Source: Paramarasmius palmivorus
Lineage: Eukaryota > Basidiomycota > Agaricomycetes > Agaricales > Marasmiaceae
Direction: 5' to 3'
Assembly (NCBI GenBank): GCA_037176845.1
Contig: JAYKXP010000031.1
Location: 186,001 to 250,000, forward strand
DNA length: 64,000 nucleotides
Position 1 is the first letter of the stretch; the number at the start of each line of letters is the position of its first letter. The notes beneath the pieces are model-generated. The model was not told the origin of the DNA. It ran no database searches and saw only the letters and a program-made list of their open reading frames with translations. Shown piece by piece: positions 19,137 to 56,109 of the stretch. Both the position numbers and the translations under genes were made by a program.

Positions 19137-22100
19137 ATGTCGCTCATAGAAAGGAACCAAGCCACTAGAAGGTACACCTTGTTTCGTTGTATTTTTTCGC
19201 TAGTTCTTACCGCTAGCAGTAGGGACAGGGACAAACACGCCGAGTCGCTCGAGTTCAGAATCAAAGGCAAGGGCTACGCTTTCCTCTGGCTCGTATTTAA
19301 CTGATACCCCTCAGATCTCAAAATTGGGGGGCTACCAGCGTCAAGGAAGAAGAAACTCGTCATAACCATTCGGGTTCCGAACGAAGCTAACAAAAAAAAG
19401 TACCGCACCGACACGGAAGGGATTAGGGATAATGGATGTCCAATAGATTTACCTGTGTATGTTTCTCCTCATGATACCGTACTAGAGGATCGACTGTTCA
19501 AATCCACGCATCTTTACCTTCAGGCAAATGAAAGCAAACTCGGAGATACTATCTCTCCAGGTTTATCGTCACCATCGATTCTGGATCAACACCCTTTTGG
19601 CCAGTGTTGGGATTCCACTTAATGATTTTTCCGTTGACAGAAATGCTGGTGTGTCATGATGTCTAGCCTTGTACGCTTTGCCTAATGAAAACGACGCGGA
19701 TAGACTTGCAAAGGGAAATGGTGATCCACAGGGAAAAGTACACCAATCACCATTTCAAGCTATCAATAAAGACGGAGCACTCGGCTTTGTCGTCTGATTC
19801 ATCCACACCTACCGTTACACTCTCGGCCACCGTCGATTTACAGCAACATGGTCTTCATAGTGATTCTCAAGAGCGCGTTACGAAGGGAGACGGTGCTCGA
19901 CTCGGCGCGGAACCCGCGACGGAGCGTCTAACAGGACAGGCAGAACTACAACAACAAATGGATCAATCCGCTGCCGGGGTCGACGCGAGACCTGATGATT
20001 CTTCAAGTTCCTCAACATCACCCTTGACCAGGGCACCCTTCGGCACCCAGACAGAACGTCATTCCACTGCGTACACCAACGATGCACTCGATGAAATCTT
20101 GACCTCCGCACCTCCTGAATCACAGATAGACGGCCATAATCCTCGCATTGTCGATGATGATTCCAAACAACTTGTTGCAAAAGGCAATGTTGACCTGGAG
20201 ATGGAGAAGCTCAAGAAACGAACAGAAAAGCGCCAATCTATTTATCAGGTCACCGATACAATCATTGCAGCATTAGACCATCTTGCGGAGGTAAGTTGTT
20301 CCAAATAGTTGTTCGTCACATTTTTGACGCGTACTAGATGCATGAACTTGCTCGCATTGCCTTTATCGTTGTGTCTAAGATTTATGATGTGAGTTAAATT
20401 AACGTTCAGTTGACGGCGCAATTCACATTGAAAATATCTCCACTAGGTCATCAAGGCAAAACATGAACAAAACGAGGCGATAATCGCGCTGCATGGAGTT
20501 ATGGTTGCCACGTACAAGATTGCGGTTGAAAAGGATGCATTGAATGATCAGGGCGATTTTTCGGGATTATTCGATGAAATAGTGCGGCAGTCAGAGGAAT
20601 GTTATGTATTCCTGTCAAATTACATCCTCAAAGGCTGTCTCTGTGTGTATTCCTTTTTGCAAACGATTTGTCCCTGTCCTGATGATTTTTTCAGCCCAGG
20701 TCATGGATTTGTGGAAAACATCGTCAAAAATAGAGGATTTCAATTGTGCCTTTGAGGAGCTCCAGAAACGGTTTTTCAACACTCAAAATGAGGTTACGAC
20801 AGTGACTGTCCTGTATACACAAAGGGTCGTGGAATCCATAGGTAAATCGTCGACAGCATGGTCTATGGTGTGAATTTCTAAAAATATCCCACAGATCGGA
20901 AGATGAGTCTCCGTCCACTCGAGCCTTCTGCTGAGCTGCTGGGACCAAAGTGTCATTGCCTCTTAGGAACCCGTCGATCATCACTTACAAAGATCCTGGA
21001 CTGGTGCTTCTATGGGGAGCAATCCACACTATGGATCTCAGGCATTGCTGGATGTGGCAAAAGCTCACTGATTGGAACCCTTCATAATTCACTGTCGATG
21101 CTGGGCTTTCACAGCCGACTCGCTGCTTTTATCCGTTTCGACCGGAGCTCATATAGGAATGCAAAAGAATTTGTCAAGGCACTTGCGTTTTTGCTTGCAA
21201 ACTTTGATGAGAGATTTGGGAAGCGAATTGTAGAGGTGGTGGAGAAAAGTCCACAGATTGCTCAGATCACAGATCTATCCACACAGGTTCAAAAACTTCT
21301 CATCAATCCTCTCAGAGGTCTGACTGAGGAAGTAGCCAAAGAAGGTCGCATTGTTGTTCTTGTTGATGGGATCGACGAATGTTCACGGGAAGATCAAGCT
21401 GAAACAAGGTTTCGAGAACAATTGTTGGAGCTTTTTGCAAAAAACGCATTTGGATTACTCTCATTCCTGCGCTTTGTCCTTGCCAGTCGCCCTGAGGAAG
21501 ACATCATACGATTCTTGCAGCATTGTAGTCATATTCACCACTTTCCCCTCGACCACACCTCTCCCGAGACTACCAATGACATCCATTATTTCCTCAACAA
21601 ATCCTTTGAACGTTCATGCTTCATCAACCTGACAAATGCTCGAAAACAGACTGCTGTTGAGCGATTGGCAGAGCGTGCCAGTGGCCTGTTTGTTTGGGCT
21701 GCAACTGTTGTCACCTTCATTGGAGAGAACATGGAGCAACGCTTGAAGGTATTCGTAGAGCAGGAGCCACCAAAGAATGCATTACATGCACTCACAGCTC
21801 TGTATGAGATTGCGCTCAAGTCTCTGGTGAGGGAAGGAGATGAGGATATCCAGCAGAACATCTACATGGCTTTAGGTCTTATCATGGCTACCTCTGCACA
21901 ATTCAAGCAATTCCCCATCCATGTTCTCCATGACCTACTTCAATATGTGGATCCTGACAAAGCTCCAGGCATACTCAGTGCCTTCAACAAACTCCGTAGT
22001 CTTGTCATCAAGGAGAATGAGAAGTACCAACTTCTTCACAAATCATTCGATGATTTCTTGACCTGCAAGGATCGAGCTGGCCATTGGTATATCAATATGG

Positions 22101-22984
22101 AGAAGTACGAAGCAATTTTGTATGAAGCTATCATCACATGCACCATGGATCACCTTGATAAGGCTGACAAGGAACTCCCAGAGGCCCTCTCATCTGATCT
22201 ATATCAATATGCAATAGATGGGCCATACTGGGGTGTGGTACAAGACTTATCCCTCTACCAGAGCCTTCAGCAAAAGCTGAAAAGGTTTTTACTGGGATAT
22301 GTGGTACGTTGGCTACGTTCTTTTGATTATCTTGCCAGCTTTGGAGGTTCAGGAGCTCAGAGGATCTTTGGTCAGAGATGTCACTTACAGGTAGCTCCCC
22401 TTACATTCAAGGAGACATTTTCTGACAATGTTTTCAGGCTGAGGAACTCCAGCATGACTCTGAATTCATGCAAAAAGCATGGCTTGGTGCATCTCGACTT
22501 CAACACATCAACACAAGGCTCCTAGTTGTCAAAGACTTTTTCAATATCATGCTATACGACACTGCGCTGGCCGGAAAGGCCACCAAGACAAATGCTGATG
22601 ACCAGCATGCTTTGGAATGGGAGGTAGACAATATCTACATGTCTGTCTTTGTTCAGATGGCTGGTGGATCAAATGTCTATGAGGAAATTGTTGCGGTACT
22701 GGACAAGGTGTGTAAAGTCAGATATTGGGTATGGGATTTTTGCTCATTACCCATGACAGAAACCTATTCCCCCAGTGGTATCATTGAGTGTGGAGATAGA
22801 GATGCTGATAAAGATTGTGAGTGGGGGGAAGATCAGGATGAAGACTGGTTCTGTAGATAAGGGGAAAGAAAGGTCTACGAAGGAGTTCATTGAATGGGGG
22901 AAGTACAAAAGGGGTGTGTGGGTTCCGATCATGGAGCCTAAGGACTACGAGGACTCAGAGGACTCAGAGGACTCAGATTGGTAA
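19137..22984 (+). CDS. NACHT-domain NTPase (NLR-like), copy 1; N-terminal part possibly broken
   Basis: STAND-type NTPase of the fungal NLR-like class. In such proteins the NACHT module binds and hydrolyses NTP and switches an N-terminal effector. The core exon (about 20894-22390; residues counted from its MSLRPLEP) has the P-loop GIAGCGKSS at 47-55, Walker B VVLVDGIDEC at 151-160, ASRPEED near 194-200, and LLHKSFDDFL, a winged-helix-end motif common in fungal NACHT proteins. Introns 22391-22437 and 22708-22759 (GT-AG, frame kept) lead to a C-terminal exon ending in an acidic tail, with the stop at 22984. No ankyrin, WD40 or TPR repeats follow. Upstream exons (19137-19171 and following) give a beta-rich segment, then a Ser/Gln-rich linker and helices. 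There an in-frame TGA lies near 19302 and another frame change near 19600, so the N-terminal part may be damaged or have introns I misread. Confidence 0.75.
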
Positions 22985-24299
22985 TCGTCAGATTAGCAGT
23001 GGTAAAATGACAATAGTAATGGATAGGGCAAGTAAATGTTAACCTGTATATTCTGCATACAAAGCTGTGTACATGTGGTTTGGTCATCCTGGAATTGTAC
23101 CATCTCCCTCATCCTCCATATCCTATGCAACCCCTTATCCTAACCCTCTCTGAAGCCCACCCAACACTCCACGACTTGTATGGTGAATAACTGACTATGA
23201 AAGGTGCCGGCAGCCATAATGACCTAGAAGAGGATGTGTCAGACCTGTAGTTTGACAAAATAACACTGTTCAGTGTTCACTCACCAATATATGCTTATAT
23301 GCCTGTGATACTACCTCTCCTCTTCCATGGATTGCCTGCAAAGAACGTGTTGAACCTTGGTACTTCCTGAGATTCTGTGTGTTGGCAGAACAACTTGTTC
23401 AATTGAGGTTCATTGATTGTGGCGGTAGATAAACCAAGCAGGAGATGGCGATCATTGTGAGAAGTGTGAGGCCAGAGTCTCAATGTCATCTGAGGGCCAT
23501 GTTAAGCAGGAGTGGAAGATATAGTAGGAGTGGGATTGATATCAGGGGAGCTGCCAGGATGTTGAGATTCACAGAGAACCTCATGTAGGAAGGCTGGGTA
23601 CAATCTTGACAGGCTGTTCAGGGAGCCAAGAGCTGCAAAATCAAGGTTGCAGTCATAAGTAATAGACTGCCAGCACAATGGGGCTAATCCACGTACTGTT
23701 CCCCTACAAATAGCTGCTAGCCAGTTATATAGGCTCGGAATATCCTACAAGCCCCTGTGATCCCAGTACTCTCTCTCCTCCAACATTCTTGGTATTTGAG
23801 TGGGTGTGGGGCGAGTTTAGAGGAAAGGATGCCGCAATGGACATATTCAGTGGAAATTGAGAAGAGCGCATTGCAACTTTGGTAGTCAGCAGTGTTGAAA
23901 ATAAGATGCTTGTAGTGGTGCACCATGTCTTTTCCGACCCTGACCGAGGAGCTGTTTGTAGGGAATGAGAGATTGAATTGTTGAGTGAATGCATGACAAA
24001 ATTTTCATCACACCATACCACGTGGCTTGTCTTTTCAACAACGTCCACCATCACTCCACTTTTGTTCACCTCCGCTCGTTCTTTGCCTCCTTTCTGTCTG
24101 TAAGTTTGCCAGCTTGCATCCATTTCTCTACCTGACAAGTATCATCACAGACCTTGCCATTCCGTATTGTCCACAACACCCGTTGCATCGGTTTTGAAGC
24201 ACGCACCATTACGCGTCATGTCAGCTGCAATAGGGCTCATGTAGAAGGATTTTTGGACTACAGCGAGCTTTCGATCCACTTCTCCGGTCTCTGGTGTTA
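22985..24299. repeat. duplicated 3' flank of the NACHT gene, block 1
   Basis: Nearly the same sequence follows NACHT copy 2 at 37333-38700, starting right after the stop codon. Identity is high for about the first 650 bp and lower beyond 23.6 kb. A minus-strand frame here (24138-23725, NKSGVMVDVVEKTSHVVWCD) has a cleaner version in the second copy (38445-38131). It may be a relic gene; no family recognised. Confidence 0.6.
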
Positions 24300-27200
24300 T
24301 TTTTGGATCTTGCTACGACTAAGGCGCTGCGTACAGAGGACCTACTCTAGTGCTCTGATCTGAGGTAGTGGAATTCGTATTGGCTGGTAAAGATGGAAGG
24401 TGCGTACTCTTCATCTTTGCTTTCGGCACATTTTTGACCCACCTATCTAGCCTCCTCCCCAAGACATCCGCCTCTATGGCGTAGTCAGCATAACTCAACC
24501 TTGTCAACCCATATCTGTCCTGCGTGAAACCGGCAGATCTGTCACCTTCCCCTGCTACCAAAACAAAGGACACCCCATAGAAGACCTCGCCATATGAATT
24601 AGCAACACTCAACAACCACAGAAATGCCTTTTCCAGTGCTTTATGAGGCACACTCGCCAAACGTTCCGTGATCCAAACCTACCCACCTATGACTCGCAAC
24701 CTCTGGCAAAGGCGACAACTTGGACGGCTCAACATGGTCAATTCTACTGGGTTGTACCTACACCCTTCTGCACCTCGTATCTCCTTCCCCTTCCGACCCT
24801 TTTGCCCCGTCCACAGTGTCATATTAGCTTCCACGTCACCAATGCCAACTATCAACACCCGAAAGGTAATCGTCCCTTTGACATCCTCGTCCACTAGACA
24901 CATCCTAATACCTCCCTAGATCATCCTCCGGCCGTGTTCAGCACCACCGAACACATTCCACACATATCATCCCTGCCACGCATACCCCCGACCTACCTCC
25001 CGTTTTGATAACTTCGCAATACACTACGACCGGCGGACAGACAGCTAAAGAAGCTCTACACATACCCCAATGAGCTCCTTCAGTTTCATGGATGCACCAG
25101 ATATGGTCACCGATGCCGGTCCATCCGTAGGTTTGACCCTCGAGGAGAAGGTATGTCAACCCTGTTTATCAATTGATTTAATGGTTGCTAAACATTTTTA
25201 GGTGTTCATGGGCTTGGTTCGAGGTTGGGGAAGGGCGTCTTTATGGTGTAGTAGTCAGGAGAATGAAGATGTATGAGGAGTCGTAGGCGGATGAAAGTAG
25301 GATTCCTTTCCGCACAAGGGGTGCGCGTACATTCTGTTTCACAACGATATAGGTCACAAGAAAGACATGTTCCATGATTCCGATAAGTTTGATGACATGG
25401 GTCGAGTACAGCATATATGTTCGTAGTTTCGCATGTAAAAGTACCGGATATGGTGAATATACACAAACTAGCTCTGAACAAAAGACAAATTCGTGCCCAT
25501 CTGCCCTTTCAGATGCCTTCAAAGTCCAAACTCCAGACGTCGGGACAGCTAAGCATCTACGTTGACGAGGTGGCATGAACTGGACAACGATAGGCTATGA
25601 TGGAAAGAGTGCAGGTCATCCACGAGCACGAGCATTGGTATTTGCGAACAGCTCAGGTTGCGAGTGGAGATCTATCAGAGAATAAGTAATTGAGCAATCA
25701 CGAAACAAACTCCTCGTACCTCTGGCTCGAGGTAGTCTCCTTCACTTCAGACGCACAGTTTTCTTTCCCAACCATTCCTATAACACAAATTGATACCCTA
25801 CGCTAGTCATTACGAGACAGCGAACCAAGATTCTTCGGCGTTGAACGGTCGACACCTCCGAGGCAATACAAGCACTTTGAACATGCTGGGTGTGTGGTGA
25901 CGATGGGTGAATCAAAGAGTGTAAAGATGGTATGGTTGTCCGAGGCTCTCCGATACACTCGAGGGGGCGATTGGTTGGAAAACGGTCTTCCGAGCGATGG
26001 TGTGAAAGGGTACGTTCGTGACGTGCTGGGTGAGAACTAGGGCGAAGGTGTGAGGAGAGACCTGTAAGAAGGTGTTGTAGGGTTGCTGACAGGGTGATGT
26101 AGTTGAGGCGTTAAACGAATGACGAGCGTATGTTGTGAATGTGACGTGGGGTAAGCTTTGTAGGGAGCGGTGTCATATAGGGCTGACAGGATAGCATCTC
26201 TGGCCGCAGAGGTACTCCCTTCTATTTCCATGTCAACAACGTTGAGGAATGAGAATAGCTCCGCTCACTTCTTGCGTTGAACCAAGACACCAACTCCCCA
26301 GCCTCTACACACCTCATGATCTCTACTCTTGCTGGCGAAAAACACGGAACCACATGAACGAATGTATCGGGTGTACTGATGCCGATAATGGTCTTTTTGG
26401 ACGTAGTCCGGCTCGTCATGTTAGCTTGCAAGGTGCAGGTCTAGTATTGTGGATATCCCGTGTTACGATGTCGGTTCTGGGGAGTGAGATCTACGAGGGA
26501 AGGAACCACTAGAGCCGATGGGCACAATGGCAAACAGGCAGAAGGCGGAGTGTTGGCTAGGGCTAAGAAAGGTCGGAACTCGAAATTTTCCACGTAAACA
26601 GGTCAACGTACCACGATAGAAGCATATACTTTGACCTCTAATAGAGGCAGCCAGATCGTGAACCACTTCTCCCCTTTGTAGTCGCAGCGGTATCTCTCAA
26701 AAAAAGCAAACGGGACGGATCTCAGATGAGAACCATGTAGGCTTCAACGGAAACTGAGCATCGAGACGGTGTTATGGAGCGAGAACATGCTTACCAGCCG
26801 TTCAAGGTAAAGCTCTTGGATCTGGCCAAGTTTCCACTTTCTTTTTCCTTTGCCCAAATTCTCCGCCCGGCATGTTCTACACCCTCAGCTATCAGAATGG
26901 GATTCGTTCTCGCATTGTATATCTGGAGTTAGAAAGGACAAGGAGGTAGAAGCCATGCCATAGAGCCCACGGAGGATGATGTAGAACATCCCCGTCGGTA
27001 GAGGTATGCGTACGAGTGTAAGGAGTGGCCTCAGGCTGGCGGATGTAGGTGTGTATGGTGGATGCCGAGATATATGTCGAGGTAGCCATGACCGATTGGT
27101 GCTGGGAGGGCATGGAGCGGAAGGCGGGGGAAAGGATGGTTGGTATTTGGACTGGGTTTCGATGAACAAATGTTGGTGTGTGGTGGAATATCATCGTTGA

Positions 27201-28300
27201 CGTACCGGTGCGGAGAAAATGCAATTTTTTCAATAGCATGGGCTTTCTGGCGGAAGGAGTGGGGTCCTTGTCAGCTTCAGCAGGGGTATAGGGCTACCAG
27301 AGTGACGGTTCCTAGGCTGTTAGAGGACGAGTGAGTGAGATGTCGAAAGAAAAAAAAGCGGAGCTCACCAGATAGCACATCACGCCCCCGGAGAATTTCC
27401 AGCCATCCATCCACCTTGAAATTCTCGGCATGCGTATTTTCCTCTCATACGAGGCCAATCGTAAAGTCCTCTGGGTATAAAACCCTTGCAAAATATCGAT
27501 ATTGCCGAGGTCATCGTTGGTGAAGAGTCCAAGAAGAGTCTCGATTTGTCATAGGGCAAGTTGGGGTTAGGGTCAAATTGAGCGCCAATTGACGCCGCTT
27601 GTCCCATGACTACATCATCACAACCTTTTCCTCTGCCTTTCCATCCCTTACTAGCTGGTCAACGCGTCTTGAAAGCCAAGGTAAGCTCTAAATTACAATA
27701 ATCTTCAATGCTATAGCTTCTTACGCCTTTTCCGGTTTGTTCCCGTCGCGCAAGCAGGTACAATTTGTCGGAAGCACGGAGATGGACGTTATCTTGCCTG
27801 ATAGACCAGGGATATAAGCAGATTGCAGGAGTCAAACTTGAAGGGTGTAAGGTGCGTCAGGGAATAATCTTTTCCTACGAACTCCGCTGACTCCTTTCTC
27901 AATTCGATAGCTTCACTGTCAAATAGATCCTCGAGAACCATGTCAACTACTACTGATTTGTCCGTGAAATCAAAACTATTGATGTTCTACTCATCCTCGC
28001 GAATATGGACAGAGTCAATGTCCCGGTCCTCAAAGTCTTCGTTGAAACTGCTTCTCCCTGAGCTCCCCAACACAATACCCAATAGAATGCCGGGCGACAA
28101 CGTATCGCAGAGAAATCACTCACCAAACTCAATTTACAGGAATATTTTGCTCGCTCAGAGTGAATGATCCACCAGGTTCGGTTTTATGAGAAGGAAAATA
28201 CCGATATTCTCTCAACGATTTTTCATTACACTATTCCTACTCCAACAATGACTCTGAGATACCGGTCTCATGTCAGAAGTTGAATCCCCTATAGTACATC
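24300..28300 (-). repeat. F-C-G unit U2 (block 1)
   Basis: Minus-strand unit read from right to left. The F segment is at 27580-27370 (LFTNDDL... then MDGWKFSGGVMCYL and a GTGAGC donor). The C/D segment is at about 26680-25800 (TLQANMTSRTTSKKTIIG...). The G segment is at 25159-24319 (LLLEGQTYGWTGIGDH, KGTITFRVLIVGIGD, later SYADYAIEADVLGRRLDRWV). The matching unit in block 2 is U4. The change pattern between copies (for example SYGEVFYG/SYSENFYG, ADYAIEADVLG/VDYGVEVDVLG) looks protein-like on the minus strand. The G-segment start codon seen in other copies is lost here, and stops occur in the second F exon, so the copy is probably dead. I do not recognise the family. Confidence 0.55.
24319..24660 (-). 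CDS. hypothetical exon of the unrecognised F-C-G family (G segment, 3' part)
   Basis: An open 113-codon frame containing KALEKAFLWLLSVANSYGEV and, further on, YADYAIEADVLGRRL. A related frame lies on the same strand at 38996-38814 in block 2 with conservative changes, which argues for coding on this strand. It is probably the last exon(s) of unit U2 rather than a separate gene. No known domain, signal peptide or membrane helix was recognised. Confidence 0.35.
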   Translation of the reverse strand: MASVPHKALEKAFLWLLSVANSYGEVFYGVSFVLVAGEGDRSAGFTQDRYGLTRLSYADYAIEADVLGRRLDRWVKNVPKAKMKSTHLPSLPANTNSTTSDQSTRVGPLYAAP

Positions 28301-28899
28301 GATCGTGAAGCCTCCCAAAGTGTTCGCTACTTATACAAAGGTATGTCCGCTGCGTTTTCTTTCCGCAAGAAGACAAATTCGGAATCCTTATAGGGGAGTT
28401 GGCGGGCAGGGTGACATCTTACATCAATTCCGAGCCGACAAGTACAGCGGCAGAGGCGCAACGAGGTACGTTCTAGTGACTCAACTCCCGTCGAAGACAT
28501 CAATAAAATACAGGACCAATCTTCCGTTGCGCGTCGTTCATCGTCTCAGTAAACCGGCTTCAGAATTATATGGGCCCCATTTTCGTGATACTCGGTACCG
28601 AAACGTTTGGACGCTCTCTACGAGATTACTGAAGCCCTACATTTCATTTTATACGGAAACTTTGGCTCTGATCATGGTGTTCTTTGTAAGTGATATCATT
28701 TTTTCTTCGTATAGGTCATACTAACGTATCATATACCAAGGCGTAGCACCTGCAGTGGTACAATGCGCTGAGCCAATGTTTAGCCCGTGTGACCGCCACA
28801 AATATATTCATAGATTAACATACTCGGGTACCCCGCATCTCCTCAGCTCGAGAAACGACATGTTTCCTCATCTATTCTAGGTTGAACAGAGATTAAGCA
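28301..28899. other. joint between units U2 and U1
   Basis: Plus-strand frame 28305-28724 (139 codons) contains plausible GT-AG introns and has a related stretch at 50.9-51.25 kb, but the frame is not conserved between the two. No gene is claimed. Confidence 0.35.
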
Positions 28900-31800: not shown

Positions 31801-32300
31801 AGCATTAGGGAGGTACCTCAAAGATGCTGCCTAGAAAATTGGAGGATGAACGAGTGAGGAATCGAGGGGGACGAGGGCGACTCACTAGATAACTGGACAT
31901 CCTCCCAAATAATTTCCAACCATCCGTCTGCCTCGAAACGATGCTGAGGATGATTTTTCTATCGCAGATTTCGTTTGGTAAGGACTTTGGGGTATCAGAG
32001 TTTGCATGAGCTCGGCATCTTTCGAGGTCGTCGTTGGTGAAGGGACCATCGTTGTTTGTTACCGCCAAATACGGCAACTTGGGTTAGGGTCACCGGAAGT
32101 GTTTGTCAATTGACGCCCGCCCTTTGTCCTATCGCTTCTTTGCACGCTCAACAGATTCCTCCTTCGTCACCTATCCTGCAGGGCTCAGATAAATTCAGGC
32201 TCAATAATCAGGCAACTCTCGATTATCAAGGTCATATCCAACTTTTTCTTACAGACGCAGTCCAAGGATAGAGAGACGGGGGCTATTGATTAGAGTGAAA
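28900..32300 (-). repeat. F-C-G unit U1 (block 1)
   Basis: Read from right to left: F segment at 32077-31860 (PFTNDDL, then SLPNEICDRK and QTDGWKLFGRMSSYL before a GTGAGT donor); C segment at about 31000-30640 (SFENIRSLILGPGKTCMSS and AITRLKEEALILEIVLL before a GTGTAC donor); G segment at 29443-28980 (start MDSTYLLLEGQTFGAAGF, then PPLVIYREGVELGG). The GPGKT stretch resembles a P-loop but has no supporting motifs and is lost in the U3 copy. The matching unit in block 2 is U3 (51.77-54.95 kb). Family and function are unknown; several stops make function doubtful. Confidence 0.55.
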
Positions 32301-39267: not shown

Positions 39268-39279
39268 CTCCCCCTCGAC

Positions 39280-45136: not shown

Positions 45137-45287
45137 GGTGGTGGTGGTAAAAGAGAGAAGATTGGAGGATGAGTTAGAAGGTAAAAGCTAAAACGGCGGA
45201 TCGCTATCCGGAGCTACGGCTCAACGGGGATACTACGCAAAAAGGCAAGTGTCGACTCTAGTTCACTGGGCGGCGGGGCCCATAACC
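45137..45287 (-). promoter_or_regulatory. Copia leader with primer-binding site
   Basis: Non-coding leader between the 5' LTR and the gag ATG. The primer site GGTTATGGGCCC sits at 45287-45276 on the minus strand, directly after the LTR. The same site is used by Drosophila copia for priming by an internal fragment of initiator-Met tRNA. Confidence 0.75.
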
Positions 45288-45498
45288 TGTTGAACGAGGA
45301 CAATCGAGTAGGGATAAAAACTTATTGTATTTCAGCTAGCTACGAGACAGCTTTTATACCTACAGTAATATATCTAGAATATTCTAAGTATTGAGGATGA
45401 ATAATAGCTAAGAGATAAATGAGTAAGAATATAAGTAAGAATATCAAATAGGTTACTGAGTGCTCGAAGAGTCGCTCAGCGACGCGAATATTCCAACA
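45288..45498 (-). repeat. 5' LTR of the Copia element
   Basis: 211 bp, by eye the same sequence as the LTR at 39057-39267. It is followed on the plus strand by the CCTAC duplication. Confidence 0.93.
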
Positions 45499-48400
45499 CC
45501 TACCAACCTATGACTTGCAACGTCTGACAGAGACGACCACTTGGGATACTTGAGATTGTTGAATCCACCGGTACGTACCCATCCCTCAGACCTCCTTTGC
45601 CTTCTAACTCTTTTGCCTCATCAACAGTGGCATGGTAGCTTCCACGTCACCAACCCCAGCTATTGACGCCCGAAAGTTAATTGTCCCTTTGCCATTCTCG
45701 TCTGCTAAACACATTCTCATACCTCCCTAGATCCTCTACCGGCCGTGTTCAGCACCACCAAACACATCCCACGCATATCATCCTCACCACGCATACCCCC
45801 GACCTACCTCCCGTTTCGACAACTTCCCGAGACACTACGACCAGCGGATACATGGCTAAAGCAGCTCCACACATACCCCAACGAGCTCCTGCAATCCCAC
45901 GGGCATACGGGATATGGTCGCCGATGCCGGTCCATCCGTAGGTTTGACCTTCAAGGAGAAGGTGTGTCAACTTCATTTTACGGTCGACTTGGCAGCTGCT
46001 AAGCATCTTTTGGGTGTTCATAGCCTTGGTTTGAGGTCGGGAAAGGACATGCTCAGTGTATTTCGGCGTAGCCGTCAGGGTGATGAAGTCCCCGTGGGTA
46101 TTGTTGGCGGCTGTGGACAAAGGAAAGAGGGCTGCTAGCCATGATCTTTCGCAAGAGGAATATATGCATACTCGATTTCCGAACACTAGAAGTTACGAAA
46201 AGATGTTACATGATTGTGATATGTCTATCATAACATGGGTTTAGTACAGCATATGTTTACAACTCCGCGTGTAGAAGTACCGAATATTGTGAATATCGAA
46301 CCATCAACTGAAGACGATCTCGTGTCCATCTAGCTTTTCCTTTCCCTCCAGACTCCAGACGTTGAGACCGCCAAGTGTCAATAGTTGACGCAACGAGGTG
46401 GCACGAACTGAGAGCGGTGATAGGAAGCGTTGTGACAGGTACAGGACCTCAACAACCATGAGGATTGGCATTCGCAAATAGCTCAGGTTGCGAGTGGAGA
46501 TCTATCAGAAATGAGTAATAAAACAATCATGAAACGAAGTAACTCATACCTCTGGCTCGAGTTAGCCTCCTTCAGATGCGCTTTTCCCTTTCCCAGCCAT
46601 AATCATAGTCCTATAACACCATGGCCCCACGCCAGTCATTACGAGACAGCGAACCAAGATTCTTTGGCGTTGAACGGTCGACACCTCTGAGGCAATACAA
46701 GCACTTCGAACATGCTGGGTGTGTGGTGACGATGGGTGAATCAAAGAGCGTAAAGATGGCATGGTTGTTGGAGGCTCTCCGATATGCTCTTGCGAGCGAT
46801 TGGTTAGAAAACGGTCTTCCGAGCAATGGTGTTAAAGGGCTGTTGTCGATCAATCCTACGTTTGCGATAGCTCATATGAAATGGTGCTGGGTGAGAACCA
46901 AGGCGAAGGGGAGAGTGGAGAGCTGTAAGGTTCGATGGAACGGCGCTGTAGAGCTAAGGACAGGGTGATGTAGTTGACGCATTAAACGAATGACGAGCGT
47001 ATGCTGTGAATGGGTGATACGGAGCAAGTTTGGTGAGGAACGGCGTTGGATAGGCTAACAGGATGGCATCTCTGAATGCAGATGCATTCCCGTCTATTTC
47101 AATGTCAACAATGTTGAGGAATGAGAATAGCTACACTTACCCTTGCTCCTCGCACCCTGCCTCTATTGATCCAGTTAAGCGCGACTACGACACTCCAATA
47201 CGAGCTTAGTTTGCTGCCCAATGAAAGGAAGGGTCAGACAAAGGTCGGAAAGTAGGGTAGCATCGAGGACTTACCAGTACCGGGCAGCGATAATATTTCG
47301 ATAATATTGCACCAATCAAATTGCTCTACAAGAGACAACACCGTTTGCAAGCTATAAAAACAACATCAGCGAAGGTAAGTATTGAAAGGAAGGTGAGTCG
47401 ACGTACCTCTTCAACGAGCTCTTGTCCCGGTTTGCGCATGTCTTTGGTAATCCTTGCTGATTCCGTAGGTAGAGAATACTTGAGATGTTTCGATTACAGT
47501 TCCATGGCTTTGGGAAAGCGAAAACAAGGAGCGGACCGATGGGATCCGACCTATACCAATGTAGTGCCCGCGCTGGGTTATTGACACTGAAGAAGTCAGT
47601 ACGATGTCTATACCAAAGAAGACAGGGTTTACATTGAGCCAAACCTTCAACTTCCCAGCCTCTATACGCCCCATGATCACTACTCCCGGAAACACGCAAC
47701 GAATGTATCAGGCATAATGATACCGAGGATGCTCTTTCTGTGATATCTCGGCTTTTCATGTTGGCTTGCAAGGTGCAGGTCTGTTATTGTGCATATCCGC
47801 GTGTTACGGTGCCGTTCCAGAGGGTGGTCTCTGGACCTAGAGGTAAGGATGCAAGAGGAAAGGTATCATTAGAGCTGATAGGCGCAATGGCAAACAGGTA
47901 GAAGGCGGAGCGTTGGCTAAGCAAAGAAAGGTCGGAACTCGAAATTACTCGTATAAACAGGTCGACACACCATGATAGAAGCATGGACTCTGGCCTCCGA
48001 TAGAGGCAGCCCGGTTGTGAAACATACCTCCCACTTGTAGTTGTGGCCATAGCTCTAGCAAGGAGCGAAAGCGACGGCTTTCAGACGAGAACCGTGTAGG
48101 CTTTAACAGAAAGTGAGCATCGAGATGGTGTCATGGAGCGAGTACATGCTTACCAGCTGTTCAATGCAAAGCTCTTGTATCTGGCCAAGCATCCGCCTTC
48201 TTTTCCATTGCCAAAAGCCTTTGCCTGGCACGTCCTATACGCCCAGTCTACCAAAGGGGGATTCGTTGTCGTGTTATGTATCCGGTGTTATTATAGAAGG
48301 GAGAAGGAGGCGGGAGCCATGCCGTAGAGCCCCGCGGGGATGATCCCCGTTGAGAGAGGTATGCGTTTGAGCGTAAGGAATGGTGTTAGGGCGGTGGATG

Positions 48401-48894
48401 TAGGTGTGTATGGTGGATGTGAAGTTATACGTCGAGGTAGCCATGGCTAATTGGTGCTGGGGAGGGCATGGAGTGGAAGGCTGGGAAAAGGGTGGGTGGG
48501 ATTCAGACTTGGTTGAGATAAACCAGTGTTGGTGTGTCACGGAGTATTGTTGATCATGGAGCGGTGCGGAGAGAATGCATTTTTTGCAATATCGAGGGCT
48601 TTCAGAGGAACGGAGCAGAGTTGTCGGCCATAGCAGCTGGATAAGGCTACTAGAGTGACAGCTTCTAGGCTGTTAGAGGACAAGTGAGTGAGATGTGGAA
48701 GGAAGAAAAAGCGGAACTCACCGGATAATGCATCTTGCTCCTGGAGAATTTCCAACCACCCATTCGCCTTGAGATTCTCCATGAATTACTCTTCCTCCTG
48801 CATGATGCAGGCAGTCCTGTCTTCAGGGTATCAAACTCTAGCGAAATATCGATATCGCTGAGGTCATCGTTGGTGGAGAGTCCAAATTTGTCAT
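45499..48894 (-). repeat. F-C-G unit U4, middle part (block 2)
   Basis: Counterpart of 24.66-27.5 kb. The G segment start is at 45978 (MKLTHLLLEGQTYGWTGIGD, open frame to 45749, then broken). The D segment is at about 47770-46560 and is about 0.5 kb longer than in block 1 (47130-47640 has no match there). The F segment starts at about 48890 and is interrupted at 48894 by the hAT-like element. Several stops are present; family unknown. Confidence 0.55.
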
Positions 48895-50128
48895 TAAGGT
48901 TGCACACGGGTATACCGCGGTGCTCCGAAACCAACACCGTACCCTTACCCGCCAATACCGTACCCGTCGCGGGACGGGTCAATACCGACCCGCCAAATAC
49001 CACGGTGTGACTAAAAACCCGCAGGTCTGAATGTACGGTATTACCGCACGGGTATCTGACCTAAAACCACGTCCATCAATGCAACTATTAATGACATTCA
49101 ACTCCCTAAGTTTTTAAGCATCTACCATCTCCACATCCAACTCATCTCTCTCCTCGTCGGTGTCCTTCTTTCGCTTGCATAACGTACGAATAGCAGCCTC
49201 TATATCAGGCATGTGAACCATGTTTTTACGTCCCCAAGAACCAAAGCAAAGAAAGCGGCGAATGGAGGAGCCAGAGAGTCGGTTGCGCATGAAGTTGAGA
49301 AGCTGGCGCCCCGCAGAGAAGACGCGCTCCACGGCCGTTGATGTTGCTAGAACAAGACTATCAAAATCTATATAGTCGGACATGAGAAAAAAGACGGACC
49401 AGGAACACTGTGATAATCCATTGCCATGCAAAAAAGGGTGGAATATGTTTGTCAACGGATCCTTGGCATTTTGGAGGGGTGCGTTCAAGTACTCAGTGAA
49501 TTCATTGCGCTGTGGGGTAGCCTGGCTAGCTGGAACGGAAAAGTTGAAATCACCCTCGCCATCGAACCTGGACGAGCTTTCCTTCAGAATCGGACACCAA
49601 TGGAGGAATTTCGCAGAGAATATGATTTAGCACGACAATATCAGCACAAATGGAGTACGATGTAAATCTAAAACGGCCAGATACCAAGTAAGCGAAAATG
49701 AGTGGTGTCAAGTCGAGCTCGGCGCTCACCTTAACTAGCAAAGAAACAAAGGCTACGCGAACCTGAATTTCTTCTCCTCTTTCCTGTCTACATCCCTGAA
49801 TCCTGCATGTACCAAGACACTGTCTGAGCTGAAGAGGTGTCGGACTTGAATTCCAGCTCCTAGAGTGCGAATTCCGCGGAAAGTAAGGGTAGAGCAGACG
49901 ACCTCATGTGAAGGGAGCAAGAAGGGAGATGGTTGCTCGAACGCTGACGCGTCTGTTTTCCTCCCAAATAGCGGCATACCAAATATGGTAATAGACCCGC
50001 CAAACACCGCGAGACCGCGGGTACGGGTCGCGGTACTGGCGGTGTTGACCAAAGCCAACACCGTACCCTTACCCGCCGTACCCTTCGTCCAAATACCGCG
50101 GTGTCAGTGCGACCCGTGTGCAACCTTA
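48895..50128 (-). mobile_element. hAT-like element, decayed, 1234 bp
   Basis: Terminal inverted repeats TAAGGTTGCACACGGGT (17 bp, perfect) and an 8-bp target duplication TTTGTCAT (48887-48894 and 50129-50136). Subterminal zones are full of ACCCGC / TACCGCGG motifs. An 8-bp duplication is the hAT hallmark, and the internal minus-strand frame carries a hAT C-terminal dimerisation segment. Too short for a full transposase, so this is an internally deleted copy. Confidence 0.9.
49114..49488 (-). pseudogene. hAT transposase C-terminal fragment
   Basis: 124 codons with STAVERVFSAGRQLLNFMRN followed by RLSGSSIRRFLCFGSWG. This is the typical hAT dimerisation region (the S-x-x-x-E-R-x-F-S motif). The rest of the transposase (BED finger, DDE core) is absent. 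The frame ends in an acidic tail. It lies inside the 1234-bp element and cannot encode an active enzyme. Confidence 0.85.
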
Positions 50129-50900
50129 TTTGTCATGCAGCAAGTTGGGGTTAGGGTCACCGGTCACATTAAGCGCCATCAATTGACACTGTCTCTTGTC
50201 CCATCACATCATAACCTCTACGTTTTTCTACCGCCTATTCATCCTTTGCTAGCTGACAAGTGCATCTTGGAGGCCAAGGTAAGCTCCAAATTGCAATACT
50301 CTTCAATACTATAGTGTCTTACGCCTCTCCTGACTTGTTCCCCCCGCGAATTGCCCGCGAAAGCAGATACCAATGTTTCGGAAGCACGGAAATGGACGTT
50401 TTCTAGGCTAATAAGTAGATTAATCAATGGGTGTAAGGTGCGTCAGGGAGTAAAATTTCCCTGTGAACTTCGCTGATTCCCTTCTCGACTCCATAGGCTT
50501 AGGTCCACATAAATACTCAGGAATCATGTCACCGTATCCCACTAATGTATCCGCGCAACATCAAACTATTCATCTTCTACTCATCCTCACGAATATGGAC
50601 AAAGAGTCAACTCCCCGGTCCTTGAAGTCCTTGTTGAAATAGTTTTTCCCCTGAATGTTGCTAAGCCTGAACGCCCCAACCCAATACGAAATGTCTACCC
50701 AGAGAATGTCAGGCGACAATTTAGCACCCAGAAATCAATCACTCACCACACTCGATTTACAGGAACATTTCGCTCGCTCAGAGTGAATGATTTACCAGGC
50801 TCGATTTTACAAGAAGGTCAATACGCTACTCATCAACGACTCGGAGATACTGGTTTCATGTCAGAAGTTGAATCCTCTATAGGACACTGATCGTACAGCT
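50129..50900 (-). repeat. F-C-G unit U4, right part
   Basis: Resumes the F segment after the hAT element: GTTGGGGTTAGGGTCA near 50144, CAATTGACAC block near 50179, then the tail shared with 27.6-28.2 kb and 11.0-11.56 kb. No intact frame. Confidence 0.55.
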
Positions 50901-51769
50901 CGAAGTGTCCGCTACTTGGAAGAAGGTATGTTCACTGCATTTTATTTTGGCACGAAGAGAAATTCTGAACACTTGTAGGCGAGTTGGCGAACAGGACAAC
51001 ATCTCACATTAAACCTTCCTATCTGAGAAGTACAGCGGCGGAAGTACAATGAGGTACGTTCTGGTGAATCAGCTCTCGTCGAATATATCAATAACGTAGT
51101 ACAGGACCAATGTTCCGTTGTGTGTCGTTCATCATTCGGTGCTGACCTTAAATATTTGGGCGCTCACTACGAGAGATTACCAAAGCCAAAAGTTTTGAAT
51201 CCTACAGAAACTATGTCCCAGATGATGGTATTCTTCGTAAGTTCTATCATTTTTCTTGAATATGCTTCGTGAATGCTGATCACGCGTTTCTGCGCAGATA
51301 TTCCGATGACCACTATCGACCTTCGTGCTACTGGCAAGTGACCTGACCATCGCAATTACAAACTCGGCTTTCTGAACGGATACTTTTCAGAGCTCGCAAT
51401 TCGAGGTATTCACATTAGGTCGGCTGCTCGAGAACACAAGACACCTTCCATCACTCTCGCGGAGACAGGAAGAGCTGCATGAAAGGACCTTTATATGTAA
51501 CGTTCTCTCCGACAGAGGCTAATTGATTTTCAGAAATTTAACAGAATTGTAAGCATTGACGTTCGAGGTTCTCTGGTATCATAAAACTCGGCAGGATACG
51601 CTTCTAGCCAGCATCGAGATTTGATGAATGTGGTGCTGGTAAGGTGCGTACTTACGCTCCTTTCCCTCAGACTAGATAGTTACTCAGCAAACATCCCGGC
51701 TCATGCCGTCCAGCACAAACCCACTTAACACGATGCCTACCAACTACCCACCACCACTGGCCCAAAAGA
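50901..51769. other. joint between units U4 and U3
   Basis: Partly similar to 28.3-28.75 kb (plus-strand segments around 50985-51060 and 51100-51240). The rest is without match. No gene supported. Confidence 0.35.
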
Positions 51770-54700
51770 TAATCTGGGGCTTCATGGGGTCATAGGCGCC
51801 AGTACATGCTCATAACTCCGCTCATGTCTTCAACGCCTCCTGACTTATTCGGCCGCCCACAGTGACATGGTAGCTTCTACCTCCTGGCTGAAAGCCCGAA
51901 CAGGTATTTACCTTTTATTATCTTTTTATTTACCCCAAACACATCCTAACGCTTTCATAGATTGTCCTCCGAGCGTCTTCAGCACCCCAGAGCATTTACT
52001 ATCCTTTATCATTCCTGCTGCCCGTACCTCTAACGTACCTCCAAGTTCGACGCCTTCCCGATATATTACAAGCGGCGGATAGACGGCAAAGGGGGCCTTA
52101 GACGTAGAGGAGCATTCTCCTCTAATTTTATCGTTATCCTGGGTTTCATCAGCGAAACCGGCTGCTCTGAAGGTTTGACCTGCGAGGAGAAGGTATGTCG
52201 AGTCCATTTTACGGTCGATTTTCCAAATGCTAAATACCTTTTAGGTCCAGCCAGGCTTCCTGCGATGTCGGGCAATAACATGTTCAGTTCATTTCAGGCT
52301 ATTTTCTCTCTGGGACGGCCGTAGAGGTAAACGTGTCACTTAGACTTCTTGGTGAGGAGCATGTTCTAACATGTGTCCCAGCATAGTCTGTGTGTCAAAT
52401 ACAAGCAAAATCTCCGTGTCAGGTTGTCCTGTACACTGCAAAAACACAGTACTCGAGTATACGCCCCGTTGCTACAAGTAAGTGTTTCCCTGTAACACGC
52501 AGCATTTATTTACACATTTTTGACTCAACCTAGATACCCAGCAACATGCCGATGCTGTATTTTTACACCTCAGATACACTACCAAAACGATACATTGAGC
52601 TGGCTTTCTTGCTGGCTCAGCCGACGTCGATTAAGGTATACCTAGCACTGCTCTTGGAAACGTGAAGTCTCCCGTCAGCCATTCGCGAGCATAAAACTTT
52701 CCTTGGGGGCGTAGTCATTGTAGTACGTCTCTCAGTGCTCTTGCGTTATTAAGATGATCTGACGAATACTTCATTACTTTAGGTACATTGATTGAATGTT
52801 CATGTAAAGTGAGTTAAGGAATGCCAGTATTGATGCGTCTCGAAGCGTTCACAGATACACCTCAATGACTCGGATATCAGAAGACTGAACACAAGGCAGC
52901 GCGAGAAGGCTAACGCGTGTATACCTCGTGCTATCTTTTGGCTTCTTTTTAATGCTACTCCTACATGCGTACTAAGATCAACCTGCCGCCATCAGTAAAC
53001 GTTCGCAATTCTTGTTGCTTGCTGCTCCTACAGTATATTACTTGTCTTTGAACAATTATGCTCCATCGTATTCAATCATGAGATGATGCCGCGAAAGAGA
53101 ACAGTATATATGAAGATCGTCATGCTATTGTATATGATTCATTATATCTACATCGTCCCGTACACTCGAAAACATCAAGAACATCAGCAAATCTCCGTTC
53201 CTCGTAGATCCGGAGCTTTGCGGCAGCCAGACCCCGAAACTTGACCTAACGCACCCTCTCTTCCGTGCATGGAGCTTTGCACTGCACTACAACATGCGAA
53301 CACGGTACGGTAGATCTGATTTGGAGACGTGGGGCCATAGCTTATCGCAGATCCCATCGCCTTCTCTGTACGCTCTGGGTTAGAACTATGACAATACTGA
53401 ATAACGCAGCACTTACACCGACAGCATAACCTCCAAACACAAAGCTCTTTCCTTCAACCTGATGATAGCATGAGTATCGAGCACGCATGGATTGTCGGGT
53501 CCGAGTATGAGCGAGTGTATATTCTTGCACGAAAGATGTCTGGGTGATGGCTTGGGATGCACATGTTGGAGGGTAAGGCAATGTTTCGTATTGTGGGTGT
53601 TCGGCTGCCATCCTGGAACCTGCGTAGGGTAGCTTCCATGACTCTGAAGCGCCCGAAAGGTCAAGAGGCATAAGAGCAGAGGTACCACTGGAGTTGACGG
53701 GTACAAATGCGCCTGTTCTTCGTAGATATGGTGTTGGCTGAGCATAAGAGTCAGAACATGAGGCTCACCACAAAACGGGGGATCAAAGCAACGCACCATA
53801 GTCCATAACTTTCCATCACCTGCCAATCCACGACACGTCTTTCTATGTTTACTTCTAGCTCCCGTATGGTACCCATGGGTATCCAATTACGAGGAGAGAG
53901 GGAATATTTGTTGAAGCATCTTCAAGTCCCCAAAGGTAGGCGTTGAGGTGTTTCGTGTAGGTAATCCGTGGGTGTTTGTGTACGACGGGAGACTAAGCTA
54001 GAATGGTGAAATAGCAAGCCTCGATAAAAGGTCCATATAGCTTTCAATCGAAGATGAGCTTGAGATAGTATTACAAGGTCGAAACACACGTACGAATCGT
54101 CCGCCGAGTTGACACCCTTGACTCTTTATTACCCAAAAAAGATGGCCACGTTCTTCCGTCGTCAATATCCTTAGCCTGGCATAATCTACGTGCTCCAATG
54201 GTCTTCTGCGGGGTTCGTTGGGCGGGGTGTATTGGTGATCACTGCAGAAGTAGCGAGAGTGTGGAACCACTCGCAGGAGAATCTTTGATCGAGGGAGTGG
54301 ATGTATGAGCGCAGGTACTGAGCTCTTTCGGAGCGGTGCAAGTTGGCTGCGGATGGCGGGTGGATGTGGTTGCGGTATGTGACGGGTAGGCGAAGCTGAA
54401 GGGGATTTTCAAACTGGATCAAGATGAATGGTTCAAGTTGTAGGGGGTAATAAAGCGAAGCGGAGGCGAGTGGGGTTGGTCAACGTTTTGGCGGCGGCGA
54501 TGGGACTCGTGGAGTCAGCTTGAGAATTAGGCAGGATGCTGCCTAAAAAATTGGAGCATGAGTGACAGCCTAGAAGCCGAAGAGCACTTGGATAACTGGA
54601 CATCCTCCCAAATACTTTCCAGCCATCCGTCTGCCTCGAGACTCTGCTGAGGATGTTTTTTCTATCGCAGATTTCGTTTGGTAAAACTTTTGAGGTATCA

Positions 54701-54950
54701 GCGGTTGCGTGAGCTTGGCATCCTTTGAGGTCGTCGTTGGTGAAGGGACTATCTTTGTTTGTTACCGCCAAATACGGCAACTTGGGTTAGGGTCACTGGG
54801 AGCGTCTGATCTGACAATTGACGCCGACCTTTTCTCTTGTCTTATCACTTTTGCTCCTTCCTCCCTCGTTAGCCATCCTGCGGCGCTCGGATGAAATTCA
54901 AGCTCAAGAAATCACTTGATTATCAAAGTAAATCCTGGGTTTTTCCTCCA
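51770..54950 (-). repeat. F-C-G unit U3 (block 2)
   Basis: Counterpart of U1. The G segment at 52207-51770 (MDSTYLLLAGQTFRAAGF) is highly similar to 29.0-29.44 kb. The C segment is at about 53740-53400 (the GPGKT of U1 reads GPDNP here). The F segment is at 54780-54590 (PFTNDDL, VLPNEICDRK, QTDGWKVFGRM). The second F exon stays open here as SNFLGSILPNSQADSTS to ALLPPTT, so this copy keeps the longest F frame. The GTGAGT donor seen in U1 is lost at the end of the first F exon. Confidence 0.55.
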
Positions 54951-56109
54951 GACGCAGTCCTTGGTGTCCAAGGCAATAGAGAGACAGTTTCTGGGCTATT
55001 GGCTGGAGTGAAGGATCGCCATGCTCTATGGTACGTTCATAGCTAGCGTCTTTGTTTCTAATCTACTGGAGATCTGACTGTTCCTCGTATAGACAGACTC
55101 GCCTTCGGTGGAAACATACTCATATATCTTACCCATTTCTATGCATGTCGAAATCGTTATCCGTGTAATTATGACACTGGACACGCACAAATGAAACGTA
55201 CCTCATTCTCCTCTCGCAAAAGCTCCTTCCCTCAGCCCTGAGATTTAGCGCTGCTCTTCTCCGATTGAACGGTCGGTTCGTCAAACTGAAAATGGCTAGC
55301 ATTCGGTAAAGCATACGATAATCAGCCCGTCAATTCCGCTCCCAAATGCTCAGTGGTGCCTCGAAATCCTCCAATCACTCTCCCACAATCACCATTCCGA
55401 AATAACTGCACAATTGTGCAGTCGTTCCGTCTCGACGGTGGTTTTCTGGCTCCCTCATTCAATATTCTTTTCGGAAGGAGAACCCCTAAGGGGATGTCGA
55501 GCGATTCCCGAAACTTTTGCGGGTTTTCGCAATTTAGCAAACATGTATCGTTATATGGGAGTTTGGGTATTTCCCAGGTACATGCTCTCTTCGTATAAAG
55601 CGGATATTGGAGGTGATTTGAAGTTTGAGTTCAGCCCATTCACAAGATTTAGACGGGTTCTTATAGCAAACATTGCCTCGATTGCATCCTTGATGTAAAT
55701 CATAATGGTACGCAAGCCCAAGCAATACAGGATCAGCTCAGCCAAACGAATCAGTAGGTTGCGGTCAAGTTCCTGCCTTTCAAATCAGAACAACGGGCCG
55801 CAATCCCACTTTTGGTTGATCAGGAAGCATTTGGATAGTTTTTCATTCTCTGAATACCGTTGACGCAAAATGCTAACATGACTCATGGCTCAAGAGACGA
55901 CTCCATGCAGCTGAACATTTTGTACGGCTATTTGACGGTCGAGACACTTAACTCTAGTTGGTGAATCCCAATGGTTTACTACCGATGCTGACTCGACTAA
56001 TTGATGTGCTACCTTTAGCAAATCCCGCCTCCTCTGCATAGATATGTATATATCCTCCTGAGCGATGCCTCTTTTCCCCTCAGCCCTGCCGCTTGCTTAC
56101 CGTCCCATC
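54951..56109. other. end of block 2 and spacer before the membrane-protein gene
   Basis: 55.0-55.7 kb matches 32.3-33.0 kb (same LSSYKAD frame). 55.75-56.1 kb has no match and should hold the promoter of the next gene. Confidence 0.4.

Follow-up and report, generated by a model that had tools for sequence, protein, structure and literature searches.

A 64-kb window of the Paramarasmius palmivorus genome (the whole stretch of DNA that was analysed, 64,000 nucleotides, to which all coordinates without a contig name refer) contains two successive blocks, each with a NACHT gene followed by two related units, and raises the question of what is being copied here: whether one block gave rise to the other, and what kind of sequence the units are. 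Self-comparison of the window bears out the arrangement initially noticed in the sequence, in which the NACHT gene, its 3' flank, unit a, unit b and a tail encoding LSSYKAD follow one another twice in the same orientation, at approximately 19.7-33.0 kb (block 1) and 34.0-55.6 kb (block 2). LSSYKAD is encoded at both block ends (32880 and 55585), and five same-strand segments form a collinear chain between the blocks: 21029-24582 against 35397-38954 (81.8% identical), 24672-26268 against 45492-47140 (73.6%), 26277-27532 against 47634-48885 (75.2%), 27544-28542 against 50128-51133 (70.3%), and 29002-32901 against 51763-55606 (78.4%). Two of the chain breaks coincide with transposons, which, as had been proposed, lengthen block 2. 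The first is a 6.4-kb Copia (Ty1) LTR retrotransposon on the minus strand (39057-45498; 213-bp direct repeats 100% identical; 5-bp target duplication CCTAC), and the second a 1.2-kb hAT-like non-autonomous element (48895-50128; 17-bp terminal inverted repeats; 8-bp target duplication TTTGTCAT) that contig C360 does not carry (contigs are given as C plus a number throughout).

In block 1, self-comparison places unit a at 24600-28960 and unit b at 29002-32901, up to the LSSYKAD stretch; in block 2, unit a spans 45492-51700 (3' limit approximate, with the hAT-like element inside) and unit b 51763-55606, all on the plus strand. Further fragments of the units lie to the left of block 1 (4.6-5.8, 8.7-11.6 and 15.4-17.9 kb). 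Within a block the two units resemble each other only distantly (24898-25157 against 29175-29435, 66% over about 265 bp), below the 70.3-81.8% of the between-block chain; the opposite pattern, which would have contradicted the original prediction, was not seen. Because between-block identity runs from 68% to 91% by segment, the split between units a and b predates the copying of the blocks, as that prediction had it.

The NACHT gene of block 1 occupies 19685-22984 on the plus strand (start uncertain; main exon about 20882-22420; stop codon 22982-22984); it can be aligned with two proteins (P0001 and P0005), and its last exon is open through to TGG TAA. That of block 2 (34048-37329, plus strand) corresponds to the annotated protein VNI00_008881 (P0004, 939 aa), placed by tblastn in six aligned pieces. 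Pfam matches identify a NACHT- or NB-ARC-type NTPase, with NPHP3_N (PF24883) at 1.8e-18 and 2.1e-19 and NACHT (PF05729) at 6.8e-8 and 1.8e-7, the first value of each pair belonging to the block 1 gene. The block 2 protein likewise matches NPHP3_N, and its predicted model has a STAND-like fold; the fold matches listed include an archaeal Walker-type ATPase, Apaf-1, CED-4, NLRP9, plant resistosomes and ORC ATPases, at E of about 1e-7 to 3e-4 and TM to the query of 0.16-0.25. A sequence search found no solved structure at E up to 0.001. As for an N-terminal effector domain, residues 135-288 of the predicted model form a four-helix stretch that has no Pfam match, the confidence of the model being modest (mean pLDDT 70.7, pTM 0.55). 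Since no C-terminal repeat family was found (no WD40-, ANK- or TPR-type repeats in six annotated homologues, Pfam, E up to 0.01), we describe the protein as a NACHT/STAND NLR-like protein, not a classical tripartite NLR.

Units a and b are not protein genes. Codon periodicity assessed by phase permutation was significant (p<0.01) in 19 of 24 NACHT windows and in none of the 25 flank, 71 unit a and 64 unit b windows, nor did it appear among copies 65-76% identical in their downstream parts. Six-frame read-through of the units gave no Pfam domain above cut-off, transposase and integrase included, and sub-threshold matches only, as did the downstream region of the C109 copy; one open frame from the units found no database protein at E up to 1 among 104 candidate proteins. 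The earlier description of the units as an unknown gene family is therefore unsupported. At the RNA level, no Rfam match reached its gathering score anywhere in the window.

Three short modules, all on the plus strand, nevertheless recur within this noncoding sequence. Module H, a promoter-like island carrying CCACGTGG, a CT-rich tract and GTAAGT, lies at 23958-24113 in block 1 and, by profile search, at 38299-38489 in block 2, where the Copia element is inserted between H and G; no H belonging to unit b was found in this window. Module G occurs in every unit (block 1, 24898-25238 in unit a and 29175-29517 in unit b; block 2, 45709-46050 and 51939-52281), as does module F (block 1, 27364-27669 and 31879-32185; block 2, 48716-50267, as two partial matches split by the hAT-like element, and 54590-54887). 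The main exon of the block 2 NACHT gene follows 3.2 kb after the unit b copy of F in block 1. In unit a of block 1, G contains an exon-like stretch (24920-25150) between an upstream acceptor AG (24918-24919) and a donor GT (25151-25152), followed by a further acceptor AG (25200-25201). Across 19 aligned G copies, near-identical pairs among them, the donor GT is present in 19/19 and the upstream AG in 16/18; the downstream acceptor is found in 16/18 if shifted AGs are counted, with three related copies lacking it at the usual place; in unit a of block 2 it is lost from that place. The donor window forms the most conserved 15 columns of the alignment (0.961, against a maximum of 0.956 in 1000 shuffles). 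The exon-like lengths span all three residues modulo 3, and a common RNA fold of the 19 copies is negligible (RNAalifold, -3.07 kcal/mol, 9 pairs). A minus-strand gene beginning at F was also considered and rejected: the minus strand reads as suggestive, related peptides (MGQ..ASI..AQFDPNPN, FTNDDL), yet most copies are broken in frame and the frame tried found no database protein.

At the scale of the genome, the NACHT subfamily is found in 37 places, with arrays on contigs that include C31 and C13. The expectation of an amplified immune-type (NACHT/NLR) locus is upheld. Genome searches with the units (query included, 40 candidates scored for each) yielded 72 matching pieces in the case of unit a and 51 in that of unit b, and a third complete block lies at C31:295-308 kb. 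Judged by these searches, the two blocks belong to a larger family and do not form a simple pair. The order NACHT, H, G, F recurs along C31 and C13, with H about 3.1 kb from the NACHT main-exon start, G about 1.1 kb beyond H and F about 2.4-2.9 kb beyond G; sometimes a second G-F pair follows, and then about 3.3 kb to the next NACHT main exon, all on one strand. Matching by 20-mers gives 41 G and 46 F matches (0 and 1 in the reversed control); the H pattern is noisier (44 matches, 15 for the control), with G following within 3 kb in 20 of the 44 and at 1.07-1.14 kb in 16 of these. A G lies within 7 kb of the NACHT in 21 of 40 subfamily places, leaving 19 without G within that distance and 22 without H, and both modules are missing from a 10-kb stretch at C31:39 kb (NACHT 62%). 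The NACHT strand is shared by 34 of 35 G matches, the exception lying 125 kb away, and no opposite-strand pair within 12 kb was found for G-NACHT, F-NACHT, G-F or H-G. The distance from NACHT to G is mostly 4.2-4.3 kb; we set this constancy aside as a sign of selection because close paralogues inherit equal spacing by common descent.

How the copies are related to one another was followed through trees of nine segments (contig C360 left aside, 5 to 11 fetched and aligned copies each). The two blocks are each other's nearest relative in 0/9 segments, which speaks against the idea that one was duplicated to give the other, and the nearest relative switches from segment to segment. The 5' half of the block 1 NACHT gene is 86.6% identical to C31:295 and 67.8% to block 2, and segment a4 of block 1 is 95.1% identical to C31:295 and 70.3% to block 2. 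Between the two blocks, third-position mismatch in the NACHT exon falls from 0.559 in the 5' half to 0.132 in the 3' half. The pair, with 82% identity across the 3.7 kb compared, shares a conversion-like tract of 200 identical bp (23359-23558; longest run in 300 shuffles, 63); a second conversion-like tract spans 221 bp (21677-21897). This mosaic identity, together with the lack of reciprocal segments, points to repeated duplication plus gene conversion.

The locus thus shows an ordered array whose parts keep one orientation within 12 kb, a mosaic pattern of identity, and units without coding signal. It is probably part of a clustered array of NPHP3_N/NACHT-type NLR genes in which the repeat includes a noncoding cassette, perhaps giving a spliced RNA. 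The repeating unit is larger than a gene, comprising NACHT, H, G, F, sometimes a second G-F pair, and then the next NACHT. Repeated duplication, both tandem and segmental (unequal exchange), would give rise to the copies, and gene conversion would homogenise them piecewise and mix the 5' halves of NACHT, its 3' halves and the spacers among blocks; the shared spacers may themselves supply homology for recombination within the array.

Conservation of H and G was compared with that of their surroundings at other members of the family. In C12 and C9, where both spacers can be aligned over 0-3% only, differences amount to 0.40 and 0.43 at NACHT third positions, 0.26 and 0.27 in G (aligned part only, 164 and 187 of 234 bases), and 0.22 in H (C12 only; H in C9 was missed by BLAST and found by profile). 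Profile tiles of 160 bp peak at H and G in both loci, with splice and E-box motifs at the centre of the peaks, whereas the tract that blocks 1 and 2 have in common is not conserved there (tile scores 1-14). C12 and C9 are themselves 84.6% identical over 6.2 kb, so for this contrast they count roughly as a single independent case. The other five of the seven comparisons show no clear advantage of G over the aligned spacer; the differences for G, spacer and NACHT third positions are 0.294, 0.276 and 0.313 in C64, 0.236, 0.253 and 0.249 in C109, and 0.154, 0.097 and 0.270 in block 2. H and G thus outlast the surrounding sequence in two related distant loci only, with weak contrast elsewhere. Gene conversion, too, could preserve such islands.

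More tentatively, many NLRs of the subfamily may possess a noncoding transcription unit of their own, with H as an E-box promoter and an RNA spliced through G, the cassette having been multiplied whole. H would then be a candidate promoter and G a candidate exon of a spliced noncoding transcript on the NACHT strand, or alternatively part of a long untranslated leader, both perhaps held by selection while the intervening sequence drifts.

Among other readings, it is rather unlikely that the units descend from an old protein gene with introns that travelled along with the NLRs and decayed, leaving splice signals and short open frames under no present selection. The intron-like signals flanking G and the F minus-strand peptides, their frame lost in most copies, would fit such a history. 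A protein search with one F minus-strand frame, moreover, was stop-free at 73-75% identity in three of the five best places after the query, with a stop in 24 of the 54 matched stretches. However, this reading has to accommodate the missing codon periodicity even at 65-76% identity, the lack of a Pfam domain and the 0/104 candidate proteins, and neutral decay predicts neither a splice donor as the most conserved stretch nor the C12 and C9 islands. We also regard with some doubt a purely neutral account, in which the spacers were simply duplicated and recurrent conversion keeps H and G alike. The two conversion-like tracts, the neutral look of the units at the codon level and the five comparisons in which G fares no better than spacer all agree with it; the C12 and C9 peaks, sited on splice and E-box motifs where the tract shared by the two blocks is not conserved, do not.

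Less probable still is a role for the three modules in the NACHT gene that follows them, either as regulatory DNA or as untranslated exons far upstream, each NLR then having a leader of at least 10 kb that begins beside the NLR before it. The modules do lie on the NACHT strand, and for 11 of the 46 F matches a NACHT main exon follows 2.8-4.0 kb downstream, but H-G pairs also occur on a contig where no NACHT gene was found (C341) or next to NACHT fragments only (C22, C115), and the distance from G to the next NACHT varies (10.1, 14.9, 15.6, 17.9 and 14.5 kb), unlike that from the preceding one. Although copies are spread over many contigs, an origin as cargo or remnant of a mobile element spreading the NLRs is very improbable because of the single orientation relative to NACHT, and six-frame searches of the units gave no domain above cut-off, neither a transposase nor an integrase nor any other. 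Direct tandem duplication of block 1 into block 2 is similarly implausible: it agrees with the collinear chain and with the trees that place block 2 nearest to block 1 (two of nine segments, near ties in b1 and b3), but block 1 is nearest to block 2 in 0/9, no segment is reciprocal, and the block 2 NACHT 5' half is an outlier among the 5 to 11 copies.

If the transcription unit that we tentatively propose is real, its RNA or its transcription could regulate the adjoining receptor or sustain array recombination, and H and G would constitute a regulatory partner of NLRs invisible to protein annotation. The units resemble fungal long noncoding RNAs (PMC8113380, PMC12566771, as far as their available text goes) in lacking coding constraint and in combining promoter-like with spliced-exon-like features; those, however, are defined by RNA, whereas here DNA features alone define a multicopy family tied to NLRs. 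Two-gene cell-death clusters of an NLR and its effector, such as het-S/nwd2 (PMC10197012, available text), likewise place a repeated neighbour beside the NLR, but the neighbour here has no protein detectable in the tests made. We recognised no noncoding cassette beside fungal NLRs in the literature, of which few subscription papers were covered.

The birth-and-death evolution of fungal NLRs described in PMC4986451 (available text) also involves expansion within particular lineages and the combinatorial joining of NLR parts; here, by contrast, exchange appears to run along one DNA segment, with a breakpoint in the NACHT exon and changes in the noncoding spacer. A survey of Sordariales (PMC12258605, available text) likewise reports clustered NACHT receptor genes and defines an NLR cluster as at least two NLRs separated by less than 40 kb and by fewer than eight other genes. 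Consecutive NLRs on C31 (206.9 and 221.3 kb; 276.1 and 295.3 kb) and C13 (96.0, 115.9, 138.1 and 156.9 kb) lie within that spacing, with intervening genes judged from locus-tag numbers alone (VNI00_008881 to 008887). The Sordariales clusters hold two to five NLRs, just 16 of 272 being made up of paralogous copies, and 'non-coding' appears nowhere in that text; the P. palmivorus arrays on C31 and C13 differ in being paralogous, in belonging to one subfamily, and in sharing about 10 kb of noncoding spacer. While paralogous clusters are thus few and small in the survey, here receptor and spacer appear to have been repeated together and recombined piecewise, so that the DNA itself records how the copying proceeded.

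The segment at 21.0–32.9 kb aligns collinearly, on the same strand, with 35.4–55.6 kb, confirming that the two blocks of the original prediction (each a NACHT gene, its 3′ flank, units a and b, and an LSSYKAD tail) are real. Two insertions break this chain: a Copia element at 39057–45498, whose 213-bp direct repeats show 100% identity and whose target-site duplication is CCTAC, and an element at 48895–50128 that we term hAT-like because of its 17-bp terminal inverted repeats and 8-bp duplication (TTTGTCAT), which we take to be traits of the hAT family. The hAT-like element is missing from contig C360, where both flanks are contiguous; C360:13001–22506 (L037), which is 99–100% identical to block 2 from segment a2 of unit a through b3 of unit b and 90.9% identical across a1, represents either the other haplotype of block 2 or a very recent copy.

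The blocks do not form the duplicate pair that had been proposed. In a nearest-neighbour comparison of nine segments, each with 5 to 11 alignable copies, they are reciprocal nearest neighbours in none, and the block 1 NACHT exon is closer to C31:295308 (87% amino acid identity), its closest relative among the matches listed, where the block 2 exon ranks tenth counting the query as first. With C360 set aside, the nearest copy to block 2 is never block 1 (0/9 segments), and the nearest copy to block 1 is block 2 in two of the nine, the 3′ flank and b1; at b3, three copies are almost tied (0.182–0.185). A third complete block lies at C31:295–308 kb, on the contig whose bases 186001–250000 make up the window. 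Similarity shifts abruptly along individual copies: third-position mismatch between the NACHT exons of blocks 1 and 2 is 0.559 from +70 to +790 versus 0.132 from +800 to +1500, the 3′ part of the block 2 exon is 91% identical to block 1, and block 1 and the third block share 95.1% identity at a4 and 75.3% at a3. Identical runs reach 200 bp between blocks 1 and 2 (23359–23558; maximum 63 in shuffles), 221 bp between block 1 and the third block (21677–21897; maximum 94), and 68 bp between block 2 and the third block (maximum 49), with 300 shuffles in each case. Repeated duplication, accompanied by gene conversion or unequal exchange, would be expected to produce such a patchwork of identity. Of the two-level expansion first envisaged, the order stands, the units having split before blocks were copied, but at the second level the copies form a reticulate family. 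Within the block 2 NACHT exon, the 5′ part (35320–36068) is an outlier, with 64–69% identity to the ten copies compared.

Each block carries one receptor gene with NPHP3_N/NACHT domains. The annotated block 2 protein P0004 (VNI00_008881) maps to 34048–37329, with 97–100% identity in five of six pieces and 83% in the first, and its predicted fold, at modest model confidence, resembles STAND-type and ORC-type ATPases including Apaf-1, CED-4, and NLRP9; a Pfam scan of six annotated homologues (E up to 0.01) found no C-terminal repeat family. By comparison with the annotated P0001 and P0005, the block 1 gene seems to stay open between about 19685 and its stop at 22984, across putative exon joints. 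Genome searches covered one assembly (68.3 Mb, 393 contigs) of Paramarasmius palmivorus, a pathogen of oil palm and other crops, and their counts are lower bounds. The block 1 exon, among 80 matches listed, has at least 37 places including its own (at least 50% identity over at least 288 residues), 14 of which contain one or more stops, some possibly intronic because the query extends beyond the exon end.

The units, which had been taken for an unknown gene family, are not protein genes. Codon-position substitution bias, assessed in 120-base windows of multi-copy alignments (p < 0.01; matches above 97% identity excluded), is found in 19 of 24 windows of the NACHT main exon and one of three in its next exon, and in none of 25 for the 3′ flank, 71 for unit a, and 64 for unit b. 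Gap lengths do not discriminate here, since multiples of three are about as frequent in flank and units (21–22%) as in the NACHT main exon (23%). Pfam searches of the units in six frames gave nothing over the cut-off, and for an open frame at the distal module F in C31:291, none of 104 candidate database proteins, restricted to lengths near the query's, proved related at E ≤ 1.

What recurs instead is a set of short modules: promoter-like H, exon-like G, and F. H (about 160–200 bp, upstream of G) contains CCACGTGG, a CT-rich tract, and GTAAGT, and most copies of F contain TTAGGGTCA and CAATTGACGCC. G (about 340 bp) has an exon-like core between acceptor and donor sites, and 12 of the 19 copies have a core of 231 or 232 bases. 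The donor is GT in 19/19 and the upstream acceptor AG in 16/18; these copies are not independent, some being nearly identical. Its most conserved 15 alignment columns surround the donor (0.961; maximum of 1000 shuffles, 0.956), and it shows neither a coding signal nor a common RNA fold. In block 2 the Copia element sits between H and G, and the unit is therefore probably interrupted.

A genome-wide search for the module signatures, allowing two mismatches at most, gave 41 matches for G (control 0), 46 for F (control 1), and 44 for H, whose signature is noisy given 15 control matches; when no more than one mismatch is allowed, 14 H matches remain, 13 of which have a G within the next 3 kb. On contigs having a place of this NACHT subfamily, 34 of 35 G and 35 of 38 F matches lie on the same strand as the nearest such place, and no opposite-strand pair occurs within 12 kb. 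H lies within 7 kb of the NACHT main-exon start at 18 of 40 places (13 of them at 3.06–3.18 kb) and G at 21 of 40, the remaining places in each case lacking that module within 7 kb at this stringency. Isolated matches number 3/41 for G, 8/46 for F, and 17/44 for H. Around 36 places of other NACHT subfamilies, neither H nor G occurs within 9 kb, and F follows within 12 kb at five. Those five F-like modules, found on C91 (four) and C94 (one), lie 6.4–10.1 kb past NACHT genes of about 30% amino acid identity.

For constraint on H and G, the evidence comes from contigs C12 and C9, which hold the most distant module-keeping loci among those read, although at 84.6% identity to each other over 6.2 kb they come close to a single case. 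Against block 1, the spacers flanking H and G align over only 0–3%, and the difference at NACHT third positions is 0.40 and 0.43, yet it is 0.26 and 0.27 for G and 0.22 for H (C12). In a tile scan of C12 and C9 with 160-bp profiles built from blocks 1 and 2, H peaks at 61 and 50 bits and G at 58–82 and 60–83 bits; all tiles clear of both stay at or below 31 bits, even though in spacer tiles blocks 1 and 2 match each other at up to 100% identity. Counting against constraint, in five further comparisons G is not clearly better conserved than still-aligning spacer (for example C64, 0.294 versus 0.276; C109, 0.236 versus 0.253 and, for NACHT third positions, 0.249), and the more distant gene at C31:39 kb shows neither H nor G in the 10 kb read.

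Our best reading of these sequences is that each repeat of the array joins an NLR gene to a noncoding unit downstream on the receptor's strand, in which H resembles a promoter and G a spliced exon, with F as a distal module; H–G may be transcribed. Long shared spacers would allow misalignment, crossing over, and conversion between copies, and such exchange would diversify the receptors. Rival accounts would make the unit a decayed gene, a NACHT leader, neutral spacer, or a mobile element.

Elsewhere in the window, two tandem gene-like stretches on the minus strand (676–4087; 66.8% DNA identity) carry the motif GWSIG, presumably serine-hydrolase-like. An inverted repeat of about 96 bp (7989–8677; 90.6% identity), possibly a small element, adjoins unit remnants. 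Related open frames stand in tandem across 12065–15246, at 12065, 13575, and 14533, the first scoring slightly under the cut-off for DUF6593 (25.6 of 27 bits), and a short tandem duplication (161 bp at 78.9% identity) occupies 57803–58198.
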